Shown here one piece after another: positions 3,466 to 16,660 of a DNA stretch of 64,000 bases (positions within the stretch are counted from its first letter, which is position 1; the number at the start of each line of letters is the position of its first letter). Source of the stretch: Candidatus Hydrogenedentota bacterium (lineage in GTDB: Bacteria; Hydrogenedentota; Hydrogenedentia; Hydrogenedentales; JAEUWI01); contig JAHBVV010000001.1 in assembly GCA_019637335.1 (NCBI GenBank), positions 751,440-815,439 on the forward strand, written 5' to 3'. Both the position numbers and the translations under genes were made by a program. A model generated the notes under the pieces. The model was given only the letters and a program-made list of their open reading frames with translations, had not been told where the DNA came from and searched no databases.

Positions 3466-4842
3466 ATGCACATAAGTATCGATAGATCGGTTGGACGGAG
3501 CGAAAAAGGCGCCGAAAACGTTTCACGAGACGTGGCTGTCTTGCAGAATCACCTGGCGACACTGTCCGAGCTCCTAGCTCGCCCCCAGTACAACCCAGGC
3601 AAGATCGACGCGTTGATTGGCGCAGTGGATGATGATTCAGCAACGATTCAGGCGATTGAAGCGTTCCAGCGGGTAAACCAACTCGCGGTTGATGGCGTTG
3701 TCGGGCGGGAAGGAGAGACAATTCGGGAGATACATCGTCAACTTGAACTTGCCCTCGGAAACGCAAATGATGGCAATCCCAATCCACCGGGGCAAGAGTA
3801 CTTTCCATTCACCGCCATTCCGCGGTCAAGTTGGAAGACCGGCGGGCGGGCCTTCGGAGCCGTGCGGGAGGGAGGAAAGCGCGCTCATGCCGGATGTGAC
3901 CTGTATCTCAAACACGGAACTTGGGTTCATGCCATGGCCGACGGGCGCGTGGTTCGAGGGCCGTATCCATTCTACGCGCACACCTTTGCAATTGAGGTGG
4001 AGCATGGCGACTATGTCGCGCGATATGGGGAAATACGACCAGCGTGTATCGTCAGGGAGGGAGACATCGTACGGGCGGGACAGCGCATAGGGATGGTAGG
4101 TCATCTGGTTGGGATTAGTGTGCCATGCGATATGTTGCATCTGGAGATGTATGGCGGTTCCGCGACCGGTCCCTTGAGCGTTGATTCGGCACACTCAAAA
4201 CGTGATGCGCAAGGTGTGCCTTTCAATCGCCGGTCGGATCTCTTGGATCCGACGAACCATCTTGACAAGTTAAAAACATCCACCCCTTTGGACTTCCTCG
4301 CGGACATGGCCACTCCGATTGGGCGGCCGCTGCATGAGGAACAACTCCGGCGCCGGGTGAATACGGCAGGAGTTGCACTCGTTAAGGAATTTGAGGGGTT
4401 CTACGAGAATTCGTACAGATGTCCTGCCGGTGTCTGGACGATCGGTTACGGCCATACGCGCAGCGTATCGCGAGGCCAGACGATCACACGTGCCGAGGCA
4501 GAGGCGTTGCTTCAGTCGGATTTGGCTTCTGCGGGCACCGATGTGCAGCGACTTATTGATGTCCCGCTTAGTGACAACCAGTTCGCCGCCCTGGCAAGCT
4601 TCACCTTTAATGTGGGGCCGGGCGCGCTGGAGGCCAGCACGTTACGGAAAAAGCTCAATCGTGGGCAGTATGATGCAGTTCCCATCGAGATGGGGCGTTG
4701 GGTCAATGCCACCGTGAACGGCGTGAAAACGACTTTGCGCGGACTAGTACGACGTCGCGCTGCCGAAGCAGAACTGTGGCTGCAGCCGGAAGGTGCGCTG
4801 GACCTAGATCCAAGAATGCCGCATCGGGTTGAGGTGGCGTAG
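3466..4842 (+). CDS. Three-module peptidoglycan hydrolase: PG-binding, M23-like, GH24 lysozyme
   Basis: A 458-residue protein with no visible Sec signal. Residues about 1-95 form a peptidoglycan-binding-like domain (RSVG..., ATIQAIEAFQ, DGVVG). Residues about 120-240 look like a lysostaphin-type M23 domain with HAGCD at 141-145 and LHLEMY around His225; the usual H-x-H is M-L-H here (Met223), so zinc binding may be weakened. Residues about 298-440 are a phage-type GH24 lysozyme with FEG (Glu310), Cys319 and Thr325 in WTIGYGHT. That E-C-T spacing (+9, +15) matches phage P1 Lyz, where the Cys is catalytic. The enzyme would cut glycan strands and possibly peptides. It sits between a lipoprotein gene and a membrane protein gene, with a patatin further down, on one strand. 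The absence of a signal suggests release by lysis or a dedicated secretion route. Confidence 0.85.
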   Translation: MHISIDRSVGRSEKGAENVSRDVAVLQNHLATLSELLARPQYNPGKIDALIGAVDDDSATIQAIEAFQRVNQLAVDGVVGREGETIREIHRQLELALGNANDGNPNPPGQEYFPFTAIPRSSWKTGGRAFGAVREGGKRAHAGCDLYLKHGTWVHAMADGRVVRGPYPFYAHTFAIEVEHGDYVARYGEIRPACIVREGDIVRAGQRIGMVGHLVGISVPCDMLHLEMYGGSATGPLSVDSAHSKRDAQGVPFNRRSDLLDPTNHLDKLKTSTPLDFLADMATPIGRPLHEEQLRRRVNTAGVALVKEFEGFYENSYRCPAGVWTIGYGHTRSVSRGQTITRAEAEALLQSDLASAGTDVQRLIDVPLSDNQFAALASFTFNVGPGALEASTLRKKLNRGQYDAVPIEMGRWVNATVNGVKTTLRGLVRRRAAEAELWLQPEGALDLDPRMPHRVEVA

Positions 4843-4876: not shown

Positions 4877-5896
4877 ATGGGATTCCATCTAATGATTCGA
4901 ATTTGTATTGTAGCGCTACAAGTTATTGTGTTCAGTACGAGTGCTCAGATTTTTCCCTTCCGAAGTTCACTCGAGTTTGACGATGACTCCTGGCAAAGGC
5001 TGGAAAAAGATGTTGGCGATAGAACGGCTGCGATTCCGGAGGATACCTATGCCCTCTATCAGGAGCGCGAATGGGTCGGCGAAAGAATTGATGAGATATC
5101 GAGAAACTTAAGAAGAGGCAATCCCTACATAGAAGGGATTGGAAAGTTTGAAGGGTTCAGGCTTAAGTGGCTTAAATTAAGTGACCGACTGATAGCCATT
5201 CGGTTGGGAGAAAAAGAAGTAGAGAATGAGTTGATTGGTGATATAAATCAGTTCTTGGTGGAGCTTCACCGCACAGCGTGGCAATATGATTTTGAAGAGC
5301 GGGAAGACTACCCTAAAGTATTGCGTTCTAAATTTCAATCTTCTGAGGCTTTCGAATTACAGGAATCGGAGGTGGAGGATTCCCAGGCACAAGAAGAGTC
5401 CGTCCGGTCGTTGGCAAATTCTAACTCCATAAGAGAAATATCCGACTTTATCGATACAGCGACAAGACTTCTACGGGATTACTCTGCAAAGTGGACGCAG
5501 TCTGCTCAGAAAATGCGGGAGGTACTTGGGAAACTAGAAGAGTATAAAACCAAACTCAATTCACAAATTGCAAAGGTCCAAACAAAAGACAACGTAAGCT
5601 CAAATCTCTTCTTGATGATACTTACAATCGGCGGGTTAAGCATCGCGGCGATTGCGCTAATTCGGCTCTTCCCCGAGCAAGTAATGGTGGAGTGGGTTGC
5701 GTCCGGACAGGTGATTCAGTTTGTTACTGTTATGATACTTTTATCCTGCATTATGGCCTTAGGTCTATCTGGACTTCTGGGGGAGAATACGATAGGCACT
5801 CTGCTTGGAGGAATTGGTGGCTACGTGCTGTCGCAGGGAGTTGGTCGGAGCGTCGCACGTCAGGTTGAGAAAGTTCGTGGGCCAGAGTCCCATTGA
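4877..5896 (+). CDS. Membrane-anchored coiled-coil protein of unknown function
   Basis: About 339 residues from ATG 4877; ATG 4892 (MIRICIVALQ) and a TTG at 4829 overlapping the upstream gene are alternatives, none with a strong ribosome site. It starts with a signal-like hydrophobic stretch ending near SAQIF. A long acidic helical region with coiled-coil character follows, then two membrane helices (NLFLMILTIGGLSIAAIAL and VIQFVTVMILLSCIMALGL) and a glycine-rich tail (GTLLGGIGGYV). I do not recognise the family. The gene is visibly AT-richer than its neighbours, with many AAT, AAA and TTA codons, which suggests acquisition. It is 34 bases after the hydrolase gene and 47 bases before the patatin gene, so co-transcription is likely. 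Confidence 0.65.
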   Translation: MGFHLMIRICIVALQVIVFSTSAQIFPFRSSLEFDDDSWQRLEKDVGDRTAAIPEDTYALYQEREWVGERIDEISRNLRRGNPYIEGIGKFEGFRLKWLKLSDRLIAIRLGEKEVENELIGDINQFLVELHRTAWQYDFEEREDYPKVLRSKFQSSEAFELQESEVEDSQAQEESVRSLANSNSIREISDFIDTATRLLRDYSAKWTQSAQKMREVLGKLEEYKTKLNSQIAKVQTKDNVSSNLFLMILTIGGLSIAAIALIRLFPEQVMVEWVASGQVIQFVTVMILLSCIMALGLSGLLGENTIGTLLGGIGGYVLSQGVGRSVARQVEKVRGPESH

Positions 5897-5943
5897 CGCA
5901 TTTAGGTCGTAGCCCAAACCAGGGGATAACTGGAGAGAAACGA

Positions 5944-6975
5944 ATGGCCTACCCATTCAAGAACCTAATCTTCGAAGGTGGCGGTGTCAAGGGCATCGCC
6001 TATGTTGGCGTTCTTCAGGAGTTGGAAAAGCGGAAGATCCTGAAGCAGATCGAACGGGTCGGGGGTACTTCGGCGGGCGCGATCAATGCCGTCTTGCTTG
6101 CCCTGAAATACAGCCGCAAGGAGATCCAGGATATCCTCTGGGGCATGCAGTTTCGGAATTTTCTTGATGATTCTTGGGGTATTGTCCGCGACTCAAAGCG
6201 GGTAATTGATGAGTACGGATGGTATCGCGGCGACTATTTCCGCAACTGGATTGGCAATCTCATCGCTGAGAAAACCGGGAATCCGCATTCGACATTCAAC
6301 GATCTGGAGAAAAAGGGCTTTCCCTTACTGTACCTGGTCGGGACGAATCTCAGCACAGGTTACGCCGAAGTCTTCTCCGCGGAGCATACGCCCCGAGAAC
6401 GGGTGGCCGACGCGACGCGCATTTCCATGTCGATACCCCTCTTCTTCGCCGCCGTCCGGAATGGGCGCGGCGATGTCTATGTGGATGGCGGCGTTTTTGA
6501 CAACTATCCGGTCAAGCTCTTCGACCGGGAAAAATACATTCAGCCGAATGTCATACCGACGCACGGCAGGGATACCGCATATTACGCCAAGGCCAACGGC
6601 ACCCTGCCACCAGGCAGCAGCCCCTATCTCTATAATAAAGAAACGCTCGGATTTCGTCTCGACACAGGACGTGAGATTGCGATGTTCCGCGACGGCGCGG
6701 AGCCTGTTCGCCGCACAATCGACAGTTTCTTTGGCTACTCCGCAGCCTTGGTGCGTTCAGTACTCAATGTACAGAACAACCAGCATTTGCACAGCGATGA
6801 CTGGCAGCGCACAATCTACATCAACACGCTGGGCGTAAGCACCACGGACTTCGACATCGCGGATGCCATGAAGAAGGAACTCGTCCAAGAAGGCCTTAAG
6901 GGCGCGCGGAAGTACTTCGAGTGGTACGACCAAAACGACCCCAATGACCCGCCGGTGAATTACGTGGCAGGGTAG
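5944..6975 (+). CDS. Patatin-like phospholipase
   Basis: A 343-residue patatin-fold lipid acyl hydrolase. Start ATG 5944 follows GGAGAG at a good distance. The oxyanion loop EGGGVKG is at residues 11-17, the nucleophile elbow GTSAG has Ser43, and the dyad Asp181 lies in DGGVFDNYP. All catalytic elements are present, so it should cleave membrane phospholipids. There is no signal peptide, as usual for bacterial cytosolic patatins. Such enzymes act as membrane-destroying effectors in CBASS and other abortive systems or as injected toxins. No cyclic-nucleotide synthase gene is nearby, so CBASS is not supported. It is the last of four co-oriented genes beginning at 2133. Confidence 0.92.
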   Translation: MAYPFKNLIFEGGGVKGIAYVGVLQELEKRKILKQIERVGGTSAGAINAVLLALKYSRKEIQDILWGMQFRNFLDDSWGIVRDSKRVIDEYGWYRGDYFRNWIGNLIAEKTGNPHSTFNDLEKKGFPLLYLVGTNLSTGYAEVFSAEHTPRERVADATRISMSIPLFFAAVRNGRGDVYVDGGVFDNYPVKLFDREKYIQPNVIPTHGRDTAYYAKANGTLPPGSSPYLYNKETLGFRLDTGREIAMFRDGAEPVRRTIDSFFGYSAALVRSVLNVQNNQHLHSDDWQRTIYINTLGVSTTDFDIADAMKKELVQEGLKGARKYFEWYDQNDPNDPPVNYVAG

Positions 6976-7314
6976 CGTCGAAAACGCGGTGTAGAAATAC
7001 CGGTCAGGTTTGCCGCGGATTTGCATCCCGGTGCGCTATCCCCTTGTAGTCAATGCCTCACGTTGCAGGAATGAAGCGCCCATGCGACCCCACGCCAACC
7101 CATGCACTGTATTCCAGGGTATCGCAGCCCCAAAGGGCCATTGCTGCTTGATCTGCTGTATGCACTTACCTCATCTCCTTCGTGCCGCTCCCTTGCAAAG
7201 CCAGAAAGCTTCAGATTATCCTTTGCATTGTAAGGGGCGTTCACGCTCCGCCGTATCTGGCTGATTGACTCCTTGTTGCTTTGCGATGTCAACTTAGGAC
7301 ATGGGGGAATAACA
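6976..7314. other. Intergenic region with no recognised feature
   Basis: About 340 bases between the patatin and GHKL-ATPase genes. I see no convincing open frame, repeat or strong hairpin. A GGGGGAATAAC ribosome site precedes ATG 7315. A weak TTGACT is present at 7265 without a clear -10 partner. Confidence 0.5.
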
Positions 7315-9198
7315 ATGAAAATAAAACTTGACAAAGCAATCGCCTACTTCTATCCGTCGCCCAGTTTTGAGCAAATCTATTTCGAAACAATTGCTAACGC
7401 TATAGACGCTGGCGCAACCGAAGTAAGCATAGATATCTATATAGAGTCTTTTGCTAAACCTGAAACTCTGTCCATTACTATAAAAGATAACGGTGTTGGG
7501 TTTACCGACCGTAACTTCGGTAAGTTTTCGCACCTGTTGGATGCGGATAGCAAGGATCATAAAGGCCTAGGGCGACTCGTACTGTTGGTTTATTTTTCCG
7601 ACGTACACGTATCAAGTGTGTTTGGGAAAAGCAATCGAAGGGAATTTGACTTTACAAGAGATTTTGGAGGCGAGGAGAAGACGACCTCATTAGAAGGCAA
7701 TGAGTCTGCCAACGGTACGACTATAAAATGCGAGTCATTTCTTGGTGAACGAATAAAGAGTTACGATTACTTGCGTCCTTCAACGATTCGGGAACGACTG
7801 CTCGAACATTTCTTCCCCCTCTTCTTTCACAAGAAGCAAGGAAAAGAAGAACTCAGCATCAAGATACGCCTGGATACGAAGACTCCGAATCAAGAACACA
7901 ATTTTTACAATTCTACGAGCAACTTAACCTTATCTGATGTTCCCGAGCTAACGGCAGTCGACTTTAAGGACGATAGTATTGACCTAATTGAGAATATCAC
8001 GGTACATTATCGCATCGACAACGACAAGCTAGCGCCCAAGTCTGTACTAACCGCTTTCTGCGTCGATGGCCGCACGATTAAAGAGCTCCTTGTTCCGCTG
8101 ACTAGCATTCCTGAAGGGCATCAGCTCGTCTTCCTGTTTACATCTAATCTTTTTTCTAGTACAGACGCATCTAGGCAATCGATCGATCTGACCCGCCTGC
8201 CGGAGAAGCCCCTTATGGCTGCTTTGCGTCGACAAGTCGCAAGTATAATCGATCAGAGCATTTCGGAAGTTCAAGAACGAAACGTGGAGATCGATAGGAA
8301 CATTCGTGAAAAATTCCCACACTTGGCAGGGTATTTTCCTACCGACACCATTGGAATTATTCAGAGAGAAGATGCGATTGAGCAGGCCCAGCGCCAGTTT
8401 TTTTTGGATCAGAAGGATGTGCTTGAATGCACTGAACTGGACGAAAAACAGTACGAAAAAGCGCTCAACATATCTGCGCGCGTTCTTACGGAGTACATCC
8501 TGCATCGAGTCCAAATTATCCGCAGACTTAAATCTATATCGCATGAGAATTCCGAATCAGATATTCACAACCTTATAGTTCCTATGCGTCAGACTTTGCG
8601 TCGCGATGGGGCTATGGCGGATATATACAACAACAACATATGGGTGTTTGATGATAAGTACATGAGCTACTCGACAATACTTAGTGATGAAAGCATGGAA
8701 AAGGTGCTCAGTGAGATAACTCTTGAGGTGGAGGCTAGTGATGGCAGACCCGATCTCACCATAGTGTTTTCCGGCGACCCCGCTACATCCCCCAAAGTGG
8801 ATGTTGTTCTAATAGAACTTAAGAAGTTGGGGGTTTCATTGGCTCAAAAGGAAGAGGTTGTGAGCCAGCTGCGCCAACGGGCCCGGAGGCTTCTTGAGTA
8901 CTTTCCCGACAGGATTAATCGTATTTGGTTCTACGGCTTAACTGAGATCGATGACGAATTTCGCCGTTCATTGATGGAAAACGACTTCCAAGAGCTATAC
9001 TCACTCGGGACAATGTTCTATAAGCCGCAGGATATCTACCCGTTTAACAAGGATGAAAAATTTATTGTTGATATGTATGTAATGACGTATGATACATTGC
9101 TGAGAGATGCAGAATCGCGAAATTCAACTTTTCTAAATTTGCTCAAGTATCGAATTCAAAACCCCGGGTTACAACAGGAATACACGCCCCCACAATAG
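7315..9198 (+). CDS. GHKL (Hsp90/MORC-like) ATPase with C-terminal PD-(D/E)XK-like nuclease domain
   Basis: A 627-residue protein. The N-terminal Bergerat ATP-binding fold shows the N box ETIANAIDAGA (residues 24-34), G1 DNGVG (58-62) and the G2 region HKGLGR (82-87). No histidine-kinase dimerisation domain or topoisomerase signature is seen. Near the C-terminus, PDLTIVF (Asp479) followed by VVLIELKK (Glu501, Lys503) has the layout of a PD-(D/E)XK nuclease core. GHKL-nuclease fusions and prokaryotic MORC-like proteins are known from restriction and anti-phage loci, so a defence role is likely. It converges on the MmeI-type gene with only 17 bases between stops. It is clearly AT-richer than surrounding genes, consistent with horizontal transfer. 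The nuclease assignment is from motif spacing only. Confidence 0.8.
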   Translation: MKIKLDKAIAYFYPSPSFEQIYFETIANAIDAGATEVSIDIYIESFAKPETLSITIKDNGVGFTDRNFGKFSHLLDADSKDHKGLGRLVLLVYFSDVHVSSVFGKSNRREFDFTRDFGGEEKTTSLEGNESANGTTIKCESFLGERIKSYDYLRPSTIRERLLEHFFPLFFHKKQGKEELSIKIRLDTKTPNQEHNFYNSTSNLTLSDVPELTAVDFKDDSIDLIENITVHYRIDNDKLAPKSVLTAFCVDGRTIKELLVPLTSIPEGHQLVFLFTSNLFSSTDASRQSIDLTRLPEKPLMAALRRQVASIIDQSISEVQERNVEIDRNIREKFPHLAGYFPTDTIGIIQREDAIEQAQRQFFLDQKDVLECTELDEKQYEKALNISARVLTEYILHRVQIIRRLKSISHENSESDIHNLIVPMRQTLRRDGAMADIYNNNIWVFDDKYMSYSTILSDESMEKVLSEITLEVEASDGRPDLTIVFSGDPATSPKVDVVLIELKKLGVSLAQKEEVVSQLRQRARRLLEYFPDRINRIWFYGLTEIDDEFRRSLMENDFQELYSLGTMFYKPQDIYPFNKDEKFIVDMYVMTYDTLLRDAESRNSTFLNLLKYRIQNPGLQQEYTPPQ

Positions 9199-9215
9199 CG
9201 TTTTCGACGGGCAGC

Positions 9216-11987
9216 CTACGAGCTTGCCACCATCTCCTCATACAACCCAAACAAAAACTCCACCCGTTCCCGTTCGGTCTCGAACTTTTCTTTGCGGTAG
9301 CAGCGATCTACGGCGCGGTCGAGGTTTTGGTGGGCTTTCAGGAGGGGTGCGGGCATGTAGAGGGGGTCGTAGAGGTCGGCGAGGGTGGCGCCGTTGTCGA
9401 GGTGAGGCTGGCGGGCGTCGAGGACGCCCTGGGCGCATTCCTCGACCCGGGCGCGCTGGTCGTCCGACGGGGATGGGGGCCAGGGGAAGTTGTTGTAGGT
9501 GATGGCCACGGAATACTGGTAGTCGCTCTTCAGTCTACCGGATACCGCCCGCATCCATGCCATGTGCATGGCACTGGTCAATACGCCAAAATGATAGGGT
9601 GTGGCGTGCTCTACCAGCCGGAGTTTATCGCCGCAAATCACATCGGTGTCAAGATAAGCGATGGGAATGTAGAAGCGTCTTTCGGACGACACCTGCGGCA
9701 GCGCCAGATAAGGTTGGGTGGCGATAAACTCTGTGTGAAATCGCCTGGGCGATTGAGCAAGTTTCTGGGTGGGCGCACTCTTGCTTGCCGCGCGAAACAC
9801 TTTCACTTTCTCGATTATGCGTCCGCATTCCGGCAGGTTGCGTAATGCAGCGGGCGAGGCATCGCCGAGCCATAAGCACCACCGCTCAATGCCATTGAGA
9901 AATTCCTGTCCTCCCAGCCATTGCTTGAAATAGGGCGCCGCCTCCGGCTCTTTGGCAAGAAAGGCAGTTTTTTCATCGGGCGTCATCAGGTAATTGCCGT
10001 CATCGATGGGCTTGTTGCCGGAAACCATGCGGGGAACGTCGCACACTGGCGTGCTTCGCCTTTGCAAGATCGCGTCTGGCCCATCTACAAGATAAGGGTT
10101 GATATTTGTGGCGGGTTGTCGCTTGGGTTCGGCTTTAAGGTTCTCGTAGTCGTAAATGGCCTTGTTCTCTACGTCTAGCAGGCCAAAGCCGATAATGACC
10201 ACATGAACGTGGGCCTTTCCCTTTGCTTCGCTTTGCCAGGAGAACGTTCGATGCGCGAAATGAATCTTGATACCCAAGCGGCGCAATTCACTCCAGAATA
10301 CGCCCACCTGCTCGCCTTGGGTAATGGAATTGGTGGATACAAAGGCGCATCGAATAGCAGTATTTTGGATATACCGCGCCGCCTTGAAGTACCACAAGGT
10401 AACGTAATCCAGAAGGCCGGAACTCTTGATATCGCCTGCGATTAGCTTTAGTTCGCTTCGTTGTTCCGTCGTTTGCCATTTTGCGCCAATAAACGGCGGA
10501 TTGCCGAGCACATAGGCGCACTCCTCCGCCGGGAGCAGGTCGTTCCAGTCCATGCGGAGTGCGTTGGCGCATTGGATGTGCGGGGTGGCTTCGAGGGGGA
10601 TGCGCTGGAACATGTTTCCGGTGCTGAGGCTGAGCTCGGTGTTCATCTGGTGGTCGGTGAGCCAGAGGGCGGTTTCGGCGATGCGGGCGGGCCATTCGCC
10701 GATTTCGATGCCGTAGAACTGGTCGACGTCGACGAGGGAGAGCTTGGAGACTTCGCCGAACTCGAATTCCTGTTCGCGGCGGTCGAAGTGGTGGCGGGCG
10801 TTGAGCACGTCGAGCTCGAGGCGGCGGAGTTCGCGGTAGGCGATGACGAGGAAGTTGCCGCAGCCGCAGGCGGGGTCGAGGAATTTGAGGGCGCGGAGTT
10901 TGAGCTGGAAGGCTTCGAGGCGGTTGTTGCGGTGGGCGGGGCGGCTGTCCTTCTGGATCTGGCCGAACTCCTCGCGGAGGGCGTCGAGGAAGAGGGGGCG
11001 GATGACCTTGAGGATGTCGCGCTCGGAGGTGTAGTGGGCGCCGATCTGGCGGCGCTCCTTTTTGTCCATGATGCCCTGGAAGAGGGAGCCGAAGATGGCC
11101 GGGGAGATGCGGGACCAGTCGAAGCGGCATGCGGCGGCGAGGCGGTTGCGCATGTCGCGGCTGAAGCTGGCGGTGGGGAGGTGGTCGGCGAAGAGCTGTC
11201 CGTTGATATAGGGGAAGGCGGCGAGGTCCTCTTCGAGGTGGCGTCCGCGGCGTTCGGGGGGCGTGTTGAGGACTTCGAAGAGGTGGTTGAGCTGGGGGCC
11301 GAGGTCGGAGCCGTCCTCGCGGGTGCGGTTGTGTATCCAGAGGTCGAACTGGGCGGTCTCGAAGATGCCGGTGTCGTCGGCGAAGAGGCAGAAGAGGAGG
11401 CGGACGAGCATGCGCTCGAGGAATTCGGTGGGGTAGCCGCCGTCGGCGACGGCGTCGTGCAGGTCGGCCATGAGGGCGGCGGCCTGGAGGTTGGCTTCGT
11501 CCTCCTCGCCGAAGCGGTGGGTTTTCTGGCCGATGAGGAAGGCGAAGTGCTTGACGTGGCGGTGGAGCTCTTCGAGGGGGAACTCGATGAAGGGGGGCTC
11601 GCCGGGCTCGGGCTCCAGATCGTGCAGGACGATGCGCTGGAAGTCGGAGAGGACGATATAGCGGGGTATTTCGTCGTCGCGGCGCTGGTTTTTGAGCTCC
11701 TGGATGTAGTTGAAGGCCTGGGAGCCGGCGCGGTCGAGGGGGCGTCCGGCGCTTTTGTGCTCGGCGAGGAGCTTGCCCTTCCAGAAGAGGTCGATGAAGT
11801 GCCAGGTGTCCTTGAGGCTCTTTACGGGCTCCTCGAAGGAGGCGACGAGTCGGCGCTTGATGCCGAAGACGCCGAAGAAGTCGTTCCAGAAGGACTGGGC
11901 CTCGCGGCGCTCGTCGGTGGCGTCGGCGTATTCATGGGCGAATTGGATGGCGCGGTGCCGGATTTCGTTCCAGGACAGGCTGGGCAC
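9216..11987 (-). CDS. MmeI-like Type IIL restriction-modification enzyme
   Basis: A 923-residue single-chain restriction and adenine-methyltransferase protein, close to the 919 residues I recall for MmeI and collinear with it by eye. The N-terminal nuclease has Asp66, Glu76 and Lys78 (IDLFWKGKLLAEHK), the same D-x9-E-x-K spacing as MmeI. A helical linker follows. The methyltransferase has motif I DPACGCGNF near residue 369 and motif IV NPPF near 495, expected for N6-adenine methylation. The C-terminal third would hold the target-recognition region, including SRWCLWL-like and NNFPWP segments. Such enzymes cut about 20 bases from their site and protect one strand by methylation, so no separate methylase is needed. 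All catalytic residues seem intact. It is convergent with the GHKL-nuclease gene. Confidence 0.93.
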   Translation of the reverse strand: MPSLSWNEIRHRAIQFAHEYADATDERREAQSFWNDFFGVFGIKRRLVASFEEPVKSLKDTWHFIDLFWKGKLLAEHKSAGRPLDRAGSQAFNYIQELKNQRRDDEIPRYIVLSDFQRIVLHDLEPEPGEPPFIEFPLEELHRHVKHFAFLIGQKTHRFGEEDEANLQAAALMADLHDAVADGGYPTEFLERMLVRLLFCLFADDTGIFETAQFDLWIHNRTREDGSDLGPQLNHLFEVLNTPPERRGRHLEEDLAAFPYINGQLFADHLPTASFSRDMRNRLAAACRFDWSRISPAIFGSLFQGIMDKKERRQIGAHYTSERDILKVIRPLFLDALREEFGQIQKDSRPAHRNNRLEAFQLKLRALKFLDPACGCGNFLVIAYRELRRLELDVLNARHHFDRREQEFEFGEVSKLSLVDVDQFYGIEIGEWPARIAETALWLTDHQMNTELSLSTGNMFQRIPLEATPHIQCANALRMDWNDLLPAEECAYVLGNPPFIGAKWQTTEQRSELKLIAGDIKSSGLLDYVTLWYFKAARYIQNTAIRCAFVSTNSITQGEQVGVFWSELRRLGIKIHFAHRTFSWQSEAKGKAHVHVVIIGFGLLDVENKAIYDYENLKAEPKRQPATNINPYLVDGPDAILQRRSTPVCDVPRMVSGNKPIDDGNYLMTPDEKTAFLAKEPEAAPYFKQWLGGQEFLNGIERWCLWLGDASPAALRNLPECGRIIEKVKVFRAASKSAPTQKLAQSPRRFHTEFIATQPYLALPQVSSERRFYIPIAYLDTDVICGDKLRLVEHATPYHFGVLTSAMHMAWMRAVSGRLKSDYQYSVAITYNNFPWPPSPSDDQRARVEECAQGVLDARQPHLDNGATLADLYDPLYMPAPLLKAHQNLDRAVDRCYRKEKFETERERVEFLFGLYEEMVASS

Positions 11988-13655: not shown

Positions 13656-13743
13656 TCTGTAGTGCGGAACGGTATGTGCTTTTACTGATGGAGGCGGTGT
13701 GCATGGCGCGCCGGGGGCGCAATCTGCCGGCGGGCCGCCGGCG

Positions 13744-14418
13744 CTCCATAGCTGTCTTGCGCCGGGGGCGCGGTCTGCCGGCGGGCCGCCGGGGCTCCAT
13801 AGTTGCCTTGCGCCGGGGGCGCAGTCTGCCGGCGGCTCCATAAGCTCTGTGCAGCAGGCGGCTGATTCCTGGCGCAGACCGCCAAATGGCGCTCCATAGA
13901 TGTCTTGCGCCGGGGGCGCAGTCTGCCGGCGGGCCGCCGGCGCTCCATAGTTGCCTTGCGCCGGGGGCGCAGTCTGCCGGCGGGCCGCCGGCGCTCCATA
14001 GTTGCCTTGCGCCGGGGGCGCAGTCTGCCGGCGGGCCCATGCGGCGCTCCATAGACCGCCTTGCGCCGGGGCGCAGTCTGCTTAAGCGGGCCCTTCGGCG
14101 CTCCATAGTTGCCTTGCGCCGGGGCGCAGTCTCTGGCCGGCGGGCCATGCGGCGCTCCGTGTCTTGCGCCGGGGGGCTGCAATCTGCCATGCGGAGCCGT
14201 AAACTCCATAGTTGCCTTGCGCCGGGAGCGCAGTCTGTGGAAGCGGGCCGCCGGGAGCTCCATAGATGTATTGCGCCGAGGCGCAATCTTAGAAGCGGGC
14301 CGCCGGCGCTCCATAGTTGCCTTGCGCCGGGGGCGCAGTCTGCCGGCGGGCCGCCGGCGCGCCATAGTTGTCTTGCGCCGGGGGCGCAATCTGCCGGCGG
14401 GCCGCCGGCGCTCCATAG
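13744..14418. repeat. 51-bp GC-rich tandem array, about 14 units
   Basis: The word CTCCATAG or a close variant occurs at 13744, 13795, 13836, 13892, 13943, 13994, 14048, 14101, 14155, 14204, 14258, 14309, 14360 and 14411, mostly 51 bases apart. Each unit also carries GCGCCGGGGGCGC and GGCGGGCCGCC, both able to form hairpins. The last unit abuts the 3' end of the gene at 14422-15642. Two to three units recur at 26040-26155 and one at 48255-48300. No unique spacers are present, so this is not CRISPR. Long frames here are an artefact because 51 is a multiple of three. Confidence 0.9.
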
Positions 14419-15840: not shown

Positions 15841-16660
15841 GGAAGCTTTTTTGCAGGTGGGCTCTCTTTGCCGCAGACAGGAATGTCCGCGATCCTTTGC
15901 GCCTGGCGGCGCATTGGACAGGCGGGACGCCTATCCTACAATTTGCGCCTGGCGGGGCTGAACACAGCCGGGACGGCTGTGCCACTTTCTTTTCGAGGTG
16001 GTCTTGGTGGGGTCAGGGGAAACTTTTTGGAGGTGGGCTCTCTTTGCCGCAGACAGGAATGTCCGCGATCCTTTGCGCCTCTCGGCGCTTTGGACAGGCG
16101 GGACGCCTATCCTACATTTGCGCCTGGCGGCGCTGAACACAGGCGGGACGCCTGTGCCAATTTCCTTTTCGAGGTGGTCTTGGTGGGGTCAGGGGGAACT
16201 TTTTGGAGGCGAGCTCTCTTTGCCGCAGACAGGAATGTCCGCGATCCTTTGCGCCTTTCGGCGCATTGGACAGGCGGGACGCCTATCCTACAATTTGCGC
16301 CTGGCGGCGCTGAACACAGCCGGGACGGCTGTGCCAATTTCCTTTTCGAGGTGGTTTTGGTAGGAGGGGGGGATTTTTTGGAGGCGAGCTCACTTTGCCG
16401 CGGACAAGAATGTCCGCGATCCTTTGCGCCTCTCGGCGCTTTGGACAGGCGGGACGCCTATCCTACATTTGCGCCTGGCGGCGCTGAACACAGGCGGGAC
16501 GCCTGTGCCACTTTCTTTTCGAGGTGGTTTTGGTAGGAGGGGGGGATTTTTTGGAGGCGAGCTCACTTTGCCGCGGACAGGAATGTCCGCGATCCTTTGC
16601 GCCTCTCGGCGCATTGGACAGGCGGGACGCCTATCCTACATTTGCGCCTTTCGGGGCCGG
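15841..16660. repeat. Hairpin tandem array, about 176-bp period, 4.7 units
   Basis: GGACAGGCGGGACGCCTATCC recurs with its start at 15916, 16092, 16268, 16443 and 16616. Each unit is a string of palindromes: GCGGACA..TGTCCGC, GGACAGGCG..CGCCTATCC and ACAGGCG..CGCCTGT (or ACAGCCG..CGGCTGT), followed by a G-rich stretch near a CCACTTTC...GAGGTGG stem. The same family appears at 26160-26405 and 47436-48250. Open frames on both strands are artefacts of the repeat. Confidence 0.9.

Follow-up and report, generated by a model that had tools for sequence, protein, structure and literature searches.

The Locus

The window, that is, the whole 64,000-nt stretch of Hydrogenedentota DNA analyzed, carries an ORF near its beginning for a putative GHKL ATPase joined to a nuclease of the paraMORC3 type, single-copy in its 7.16-Mb genome. 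The features discussed below are:

7303–7309, forward strand: GGGGGAA, a probable ribosome-binding site (from the sequence) before the ATG at 7315
7315–9198, forward strand: ORF of the GHKL-S5-nuclease protein (paraMORC3 type), 627 amino acids
7315–7839, forward strand: GHKL ATP-binding domain, approximately residues 1–175, with E24/N28, D58-NGVGF, and HKGLGR (82–87); Pfam HATPase_c_3/HATPase_c and structure match to MORC3, MORC2, and MutL
7840–8268, forward strand: predicted S5/transducer domain, approximately residues 176–318, with invariant R253 (DGR) and R287; from the model compared with GHKL+S5 modules, boundary approximate
8203–8532, forward strand: helical connector, residues 297–406, from the secondary structure of the model; probably a dimer or clamp arm
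8539–9159, forward strand: predicted PD-(D/E)XK nuclease domain, residues 409–615, with E414, P479-D480, and E501-x-K503; from alignment and predicted structure
9216–11987, reverse strand: MmeI-type IIG restriction-methylation enzyme, a convergent neighbor and separate system; Pfam MmeI domains, PADLOC REase_MTase_IIG (E 0)

The paraMORC3-type gene is foreign in composition. It had been described as AT-rich, and its GC content is 44.2% against 63.0% for the window, with a GC3 of 0.48 against 0.80–0.84 for two other long window genes. It converges on an intact MmeI-type gene across a 17 bp gap. The preliminary description took this neighbor as support for a defense role; the adjacency holds, but MmeI is not a conserved partner. 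There is no MmeI match in any of the four other Hydrogenedentota genomes with a paraMORC3 gene, and the two genes occur independently within the phylum.

In one congener (G035), the genes for paraMORC3, patatin, the membrane protein, and lysozyme are missing from the locus behind the FHA/sigma-54 regulator gene, which the window has too, and three MmeI 3′ remnants are present; in two others (G034 and G036, represented by shorter stretches), no match to these four genes was found. From this pattern of absences, the paraMORC3-bearing stretch appears to be a variable island. Short fragments of the MmeI gene's 3′ end (window 9231–9446, ~77 codons), most of them 79–92% identical, recur at L066 (G035:C8) 8820–11578; G000:C1:419198–419423; G036:C596, C546, and C496; and G033:C342. 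The three copies in G035 are spaced at ~1.2 kb, downstream of the regulator gene that the window also has, an arrangement suggesting a hotspot of recombination or cassettes exchanged repeatedly.

Upstream of the paraMORC3-type gene, a single ORF (3466–4842) has an unusual architecture with two hydrolases, an M23 peptidase and a lysozyme domain of phage type, in addition to a peptidoglycan-binding domain. It is followed (4877–6975) by a predicted coiled-coil membrane protein, which a CARF2-HEPN profile matches weakly (E 7e-4), and then by a patatin-like phospholipase with hits to phospholipase models of CBASS. No cyclase gene was recognized alongside. A functional link of these genes to the paraMORC3-type gene was considered and rejected: none of the three has a counterpart at the homologue loci examined for it. 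The window also includes two tandem arrays, one of a 51-bp unit in ~14 copies (13708–14418) and one of a 176-bp unit in 4.6 copies with 93% identity (15847–16649).

Sequence Motifs and Predicted Structure

The ATP-binding motifs are complete, as had been stated: the N box (E24/N28), G1 (D58-N-G-V-G-F), and G2 (H82-K-G-L-G-R87) are all present, and the Pfam models HATPase_c_3 (E 1.1e-6) and HATPase_c (2e-6) match above cut-off. For the C-terminal part, the only Pfam match is PDDEXK_9, at a sub-threshold level. The nuclease motif is P479-D480-x20-E501-L-K503, plus E414. It had been given as Asp479-x21-Glu501-x-Lys503; the motif is present and E501 and K503 were correctly placed, but the aspartate is D480, the earlier numbering being one too low.

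In an alignment of 20 sequences from several phyla, comprising the window protein and relatives, the invariant columns include E24, N28, D58, G60, G62, K83, G84, and G86 on the ATPase side, and further along R253, R287, E414, H418, P479, D480, E501, and K503. The GHKL and E-D-ExK columns are outside the search patterns used to collect these sequences, so their invariance is not chance. DDKYMSY, on the other hand, was itself among the two patterns searched for, and its invariance in alignment A3 is partly due to selection.

A full-length AlphaFold2 model (mean pLDDT 83.3, pTM 0.65) was compared with solved structures. Residues 1–318 model as a MORC/MutL-type GHKL+S5 module, with matches to mouse MORC3 (5ix2; Z 19.0, rmsd 3.6, 277 residues) and to human MORC2, Hsp90, MutL, and gyrase (Z 15–19 for the GHKL+S5 modules of MORC3, MORC2, MutL, and gyrase). 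These matches place a predicted S5 transducer after the GHKL domain, followed by the helices of residues 297–406. The 350-residue middle, earlier thought to have no recognizable domain, would therefore be mainly S5 transducer domain and helices. In a search of the PDB by sequence, with a profile query, the matches were chiefly to MutL/PMS2, in the GHKL motifs, with E values of 0.015 and upward.

The C-terminal part (residues 376–627; pLDDT 79.0, pTM 0.76) models as a restriction-endonuclease fold. Its best four solved matches are four Shedu entries (8ti9, Z 10.8; 8ti8, 9.9; 8ps5, 9.8; 8ps4, 9.5), followed by the BspD6I small subunit (Z 8.7), FokI (7.4), and McrBC (7.2, to McrC). Foldseek gave no match below E 0.001 with this model; the Shedu matches come from a second aligner, so the predicted nuclease fold is based on that aligner's result, the consistency of the ranking, and the motif. 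Structure prediction of this region had been proposed as a check on the reading of the protein as a GHKL ATPase fused to a PD-(D/E)XK nuclease, and the predicted fold, with the invariant E-D-ExK residues, agrees with that reading.

Family Assignment

In the preliminary description, the domain order and length matched no system that could be named. They are in fact those of paraMORC3, first described by Iyer, Abhiman, and Aravind (2008; PMC2292703) with the motif set E-D-ExK. According to these authors, paraMORCs are without the MORC motif; their proposal is that paraMORCs act in DNA looping in restriction-modification (R-M), with occasional recruitment to mismatch repair. The window protein is a paraMORC3 member, here from Hydrogenedentota, and is of an already-named kind of anti-phage protein. 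PADLOC (2023) and NCBIfam (2026) leave it unnamed, with weak matches mostly to the GHKL motifs.

An anti-phage relative is VcSduA of Vibrio cholerae (Shedu type I-D; Nat Microbiol 2025, PMC12137116), in which a GHKL ATPase domain is combined with a nuclease of the DUF4263 type. Its defense against T1-like phages is abolished by E27A and K557A; it protects at all MOIs tested, with survival of the host, and works by itself; and its model is a dimer of entwined subunits whose middle domain resembles a clamp (PMC12137116). EcSduA senses DNA ends via an N-terminal clamp (PMC12904381).

For sequence comparison, VcSduA was represented not by its own sequence but by close relatives from Vibrio, Acinetobacter, and Rhodococcus plasmids. 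In the Vibrio fluvialis, Salinivibrio, and Acinetobacter proteins, E27 and K556/K558 stand where VcSduA has E27 and K557. Profile comparison by hhalign of the window subfamily with 12 VcSduA-like proteins gave a probability of 100 and E 6.4e-56 over 578 columns. Invariant in these 12, at equivalent positions, are E27, N31, D76, G78, G80, G104, G106, R260, and R304, and on the nuclease side E468, H472, P525, D526, E554, and K556. The VcSduA-like profile matches canonical Shedu in the nuclease region (probability 80, E 1.4e-5), with E-x-K aligned. Taken by itself, the nuclease profile built from the window's clade has no direct match to the Shedu profile, and Pfam SduA_C (DUF4263) was found in none of 20 members, though the best four fold matches are all Shedu.

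By tree analysis, the window protein groups with the other Hydrogenedentota sequence (support 99/97) in a 14-member clade (100/100), mostly from Bacteroidota; the VcSduA-like proteins form a clade apart (100/100). A literature search found no experiment on any member of the window's clade.

Distribution and Neighborhoods of Homologues

paraMORC3 genes were found in 5 of 68 Hydrogenedentota genomes, a marginal match in G003 (E 7e-4) not being counted, and in none of three congeners. Besides the window's own, one genome has a homologue with 49% identity and three have more distant ones, found by profile search. A scan of GTDB representatives yielded 20 loci, most in Bacteroidota, the others in Spirochaetota, Campylobacterota, Cyanobacteria/Melainabacteria, Elusimicrobiota, Bacillota, and Pseudomonadota. 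The Acinetobacter member has 59 matches in plasmid records; used as query it had one match in a phage collection, where the window protein had none, and no DNA match in E. coli genomes. No direct homologue was confirmed in IMG/VR. In the Dyadobacter jiangsuensis homologue (L018 8001–9887), the GHKL-S5 and nuclease parts are separated by an in-frame stop, and this homologue is therefore taken to be a decayed or split copy.

The neighborhood scan covered part of the neighboring genes. Within the window's own clade, one gene follows a complete type I R-M operon and precedes a DUF262-type gene (L020); others are behind type III Mod-Res (L023), behind type IIG and HKD-SNF2 helicase genes (L022, L025), ahead of an SNF2 helicase (L018), or ahead of a DNA methylase (L021), and three are apparently alone near other genes (L014, L024, L026). 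Among VcSduA-like relatives, two are last in type I R-M operons (L033, L034), one adjoins type III CBASS (L052), and three are beside AbiE or Abi genes (L010, L011, L056); a type I R-M operon is also found beside homologue L053.

Two loci contain canonical Shedu genes in close association with genes for ATP-binding proteins. In Vibrio fluvialis (L034 1625–5019), the Shedu gene overlaps the paraMORC3 gene inside the type I R-M operon; on a Rhizobium plasmid (L079 2676–6081), it is 10 bp behind the gene for another ATP-binding protein. The latter was considered as a paraMORC3 candidate and rejected: D-N-G-x-G and E-x-K are present, but kinship was undetectable on comparison.

Possible Functions

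The homologue and neighbor search suggested in the preliminary description found genes that are sporadic, in part plasmid-borne, and in part near R-M, CBASS, or Abi genes or alone. With the kinship to VcSduA, this distribution and these defense-rich neighborhoods make the stand-alone anti-phage role first proposed there a likely one, by analogy. We consider it probable that the gene encodes a horizontally acquired, single-gene paraMORC3 nuclease, related to VcSduA, which is ATP-gated and restricts invading DNA directly. Two subunits would dimerize via the GHKL-S5 module on ATP binding and close around DNA as a gate or clamp; the C-terminal PD-(D/E)XK domains could then be licensed by the ATP cycle, or by a recognized feature of foreign DNA such as free ends or topology, and would cut the foreign DNA, so that phage or plasmid is restricted without death of the cell. 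Both active-site motif sets and both predicted folds are present in the window protein. The need for both active sites and host survival are known for VcSduA only, and the same action may be expected by analogy in the window's clade. Counting against it, the sequence tree separates this clade from the VcSduA-like one with full support, SduA_C and a direct Shedu profile match are both missing on the window's side, and the many homologues in R-M operons could possibly indicate dependence on a partner.

It is conceivable, if rather doubtful, that the mainly Bacteroidota clade is functionally distinct, with a clamp that senses some other feature (e.g., topology or compaction rather than DNA ends) and a DDKYMSY nuclease subtype of its own.

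That the protein is an accessory R-M subunit seems unlikely. It would then be a DNA-looping or clamp nuclease needing a methylase or restriction enzyme, either the adjacent MmeI-type one or one that is unlinked. MmeI enzymes act alone, however, and MmeI and paraMORC3 are together nowhere in the phylum outside the window. DNA looping in R-M was the 2008 proposal for paraMORCs (PMC2292703), and homologues do lie right after HsdR or HsdS, behind type III Res, or 3 bp before a methylase, but VcSduA acts by itself (PMC12137116). The partners also vary by locus, and L014, L024, and L026 occur on their own, surrounded by other genes.

GHKL ATPases are able to gate conformational changes on a large scale, and suicide is the mode of action of many PD-(D/E)XK defense effectors. 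An abortive-infection effector, whose ATP-bound sensor frees an indiscriminate nuclease so that the infected cell dies, might be imagined on these grounds; given that VcSduA is protective at every MOI tested with the host alive (PMC12137116), it is very improbable. Scarcely tenable is a MutL-like DNA-repair protein, an ATP-gated nicking endonuclease acquired with the island and not for defense: MutL has the GHKL+S5 module in common (Z 16–17) and occasional mismatch-repair recruitment was mentioned by Iyer et al. (2008; PMC2292703), but the sporadic distribution, plasmid carriage, R-M/CBASS/Abi neighbors, and foreign composition speak against it, and by fold matches the nuclease is of the Shedu/PD-(D/E)XK type rather than the MutL endonuclease.

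A putatively ATP-gated module of the MORC/MutL type, joined to a nuclease of the Shedu type, is now placed in a Hydrogenedentota/Bacteroidota branch. The clade would offer another, divergent system in which to ask how a nuclease is licensed by a GHKL clamp, with a bearing on both MORC biology and Shedu.

Comparison with Known Systems

Likeness to the BbrUII/HgiDII restriction enzymes is limited to the ATP-binding motif (residues 24–67 of the window protein, E 1.3e-4, far below cut-off), with no full-length relationship seen. Tiamat (TmtA) gave a very weak match for one of eight relatives (E 0.0027), again with no full-length relationship. MORC ATPases and MutL have the GHKL+S5 module of residues 1–318 in common with the window protein (Z 16–19), but the C-terminal parts differ: the window protein has neither a CW domain nor a MutL endonuclease domain, the latter being of a metal-binding type.

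With canonical Shedu SduA (Bacillus cereus 8ti8/8ti9, E. coli 8ps4/8ps5), the predicted nuclease fold (Z 9.5–10.8) and E-x-K are common; SduA, however, is without a GHKL domain, and the clade's nuclease sequence profile has no direct SduA match. Likeness to VcSduA extends to domain order, conservation of both active sites, the single gene, and a full-length profile match to VcSduA-like proteins; the differences are an identity of only ~20% to these proteins, a length of 627 vs. ~670 amino acids, and an undetectable SduA_C profile.

What is new with respect to paraMORC3 itself, a known kind, is a member from Hydrogenedentota, in a branch for which the literature search found no experiment. No difference in architecture was found: as described for the family (PMC2292703), there is an N-terminal GHKL domain with intact motifs, an S5 domain, and a C-terminal restriction-endonuclease-fold domain with E-D-ExK. 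The distribution is also alike, being sporadic and prevalent in proteobacteria and Bacteroidetes, with some genes in R-M loci and others standing alone.
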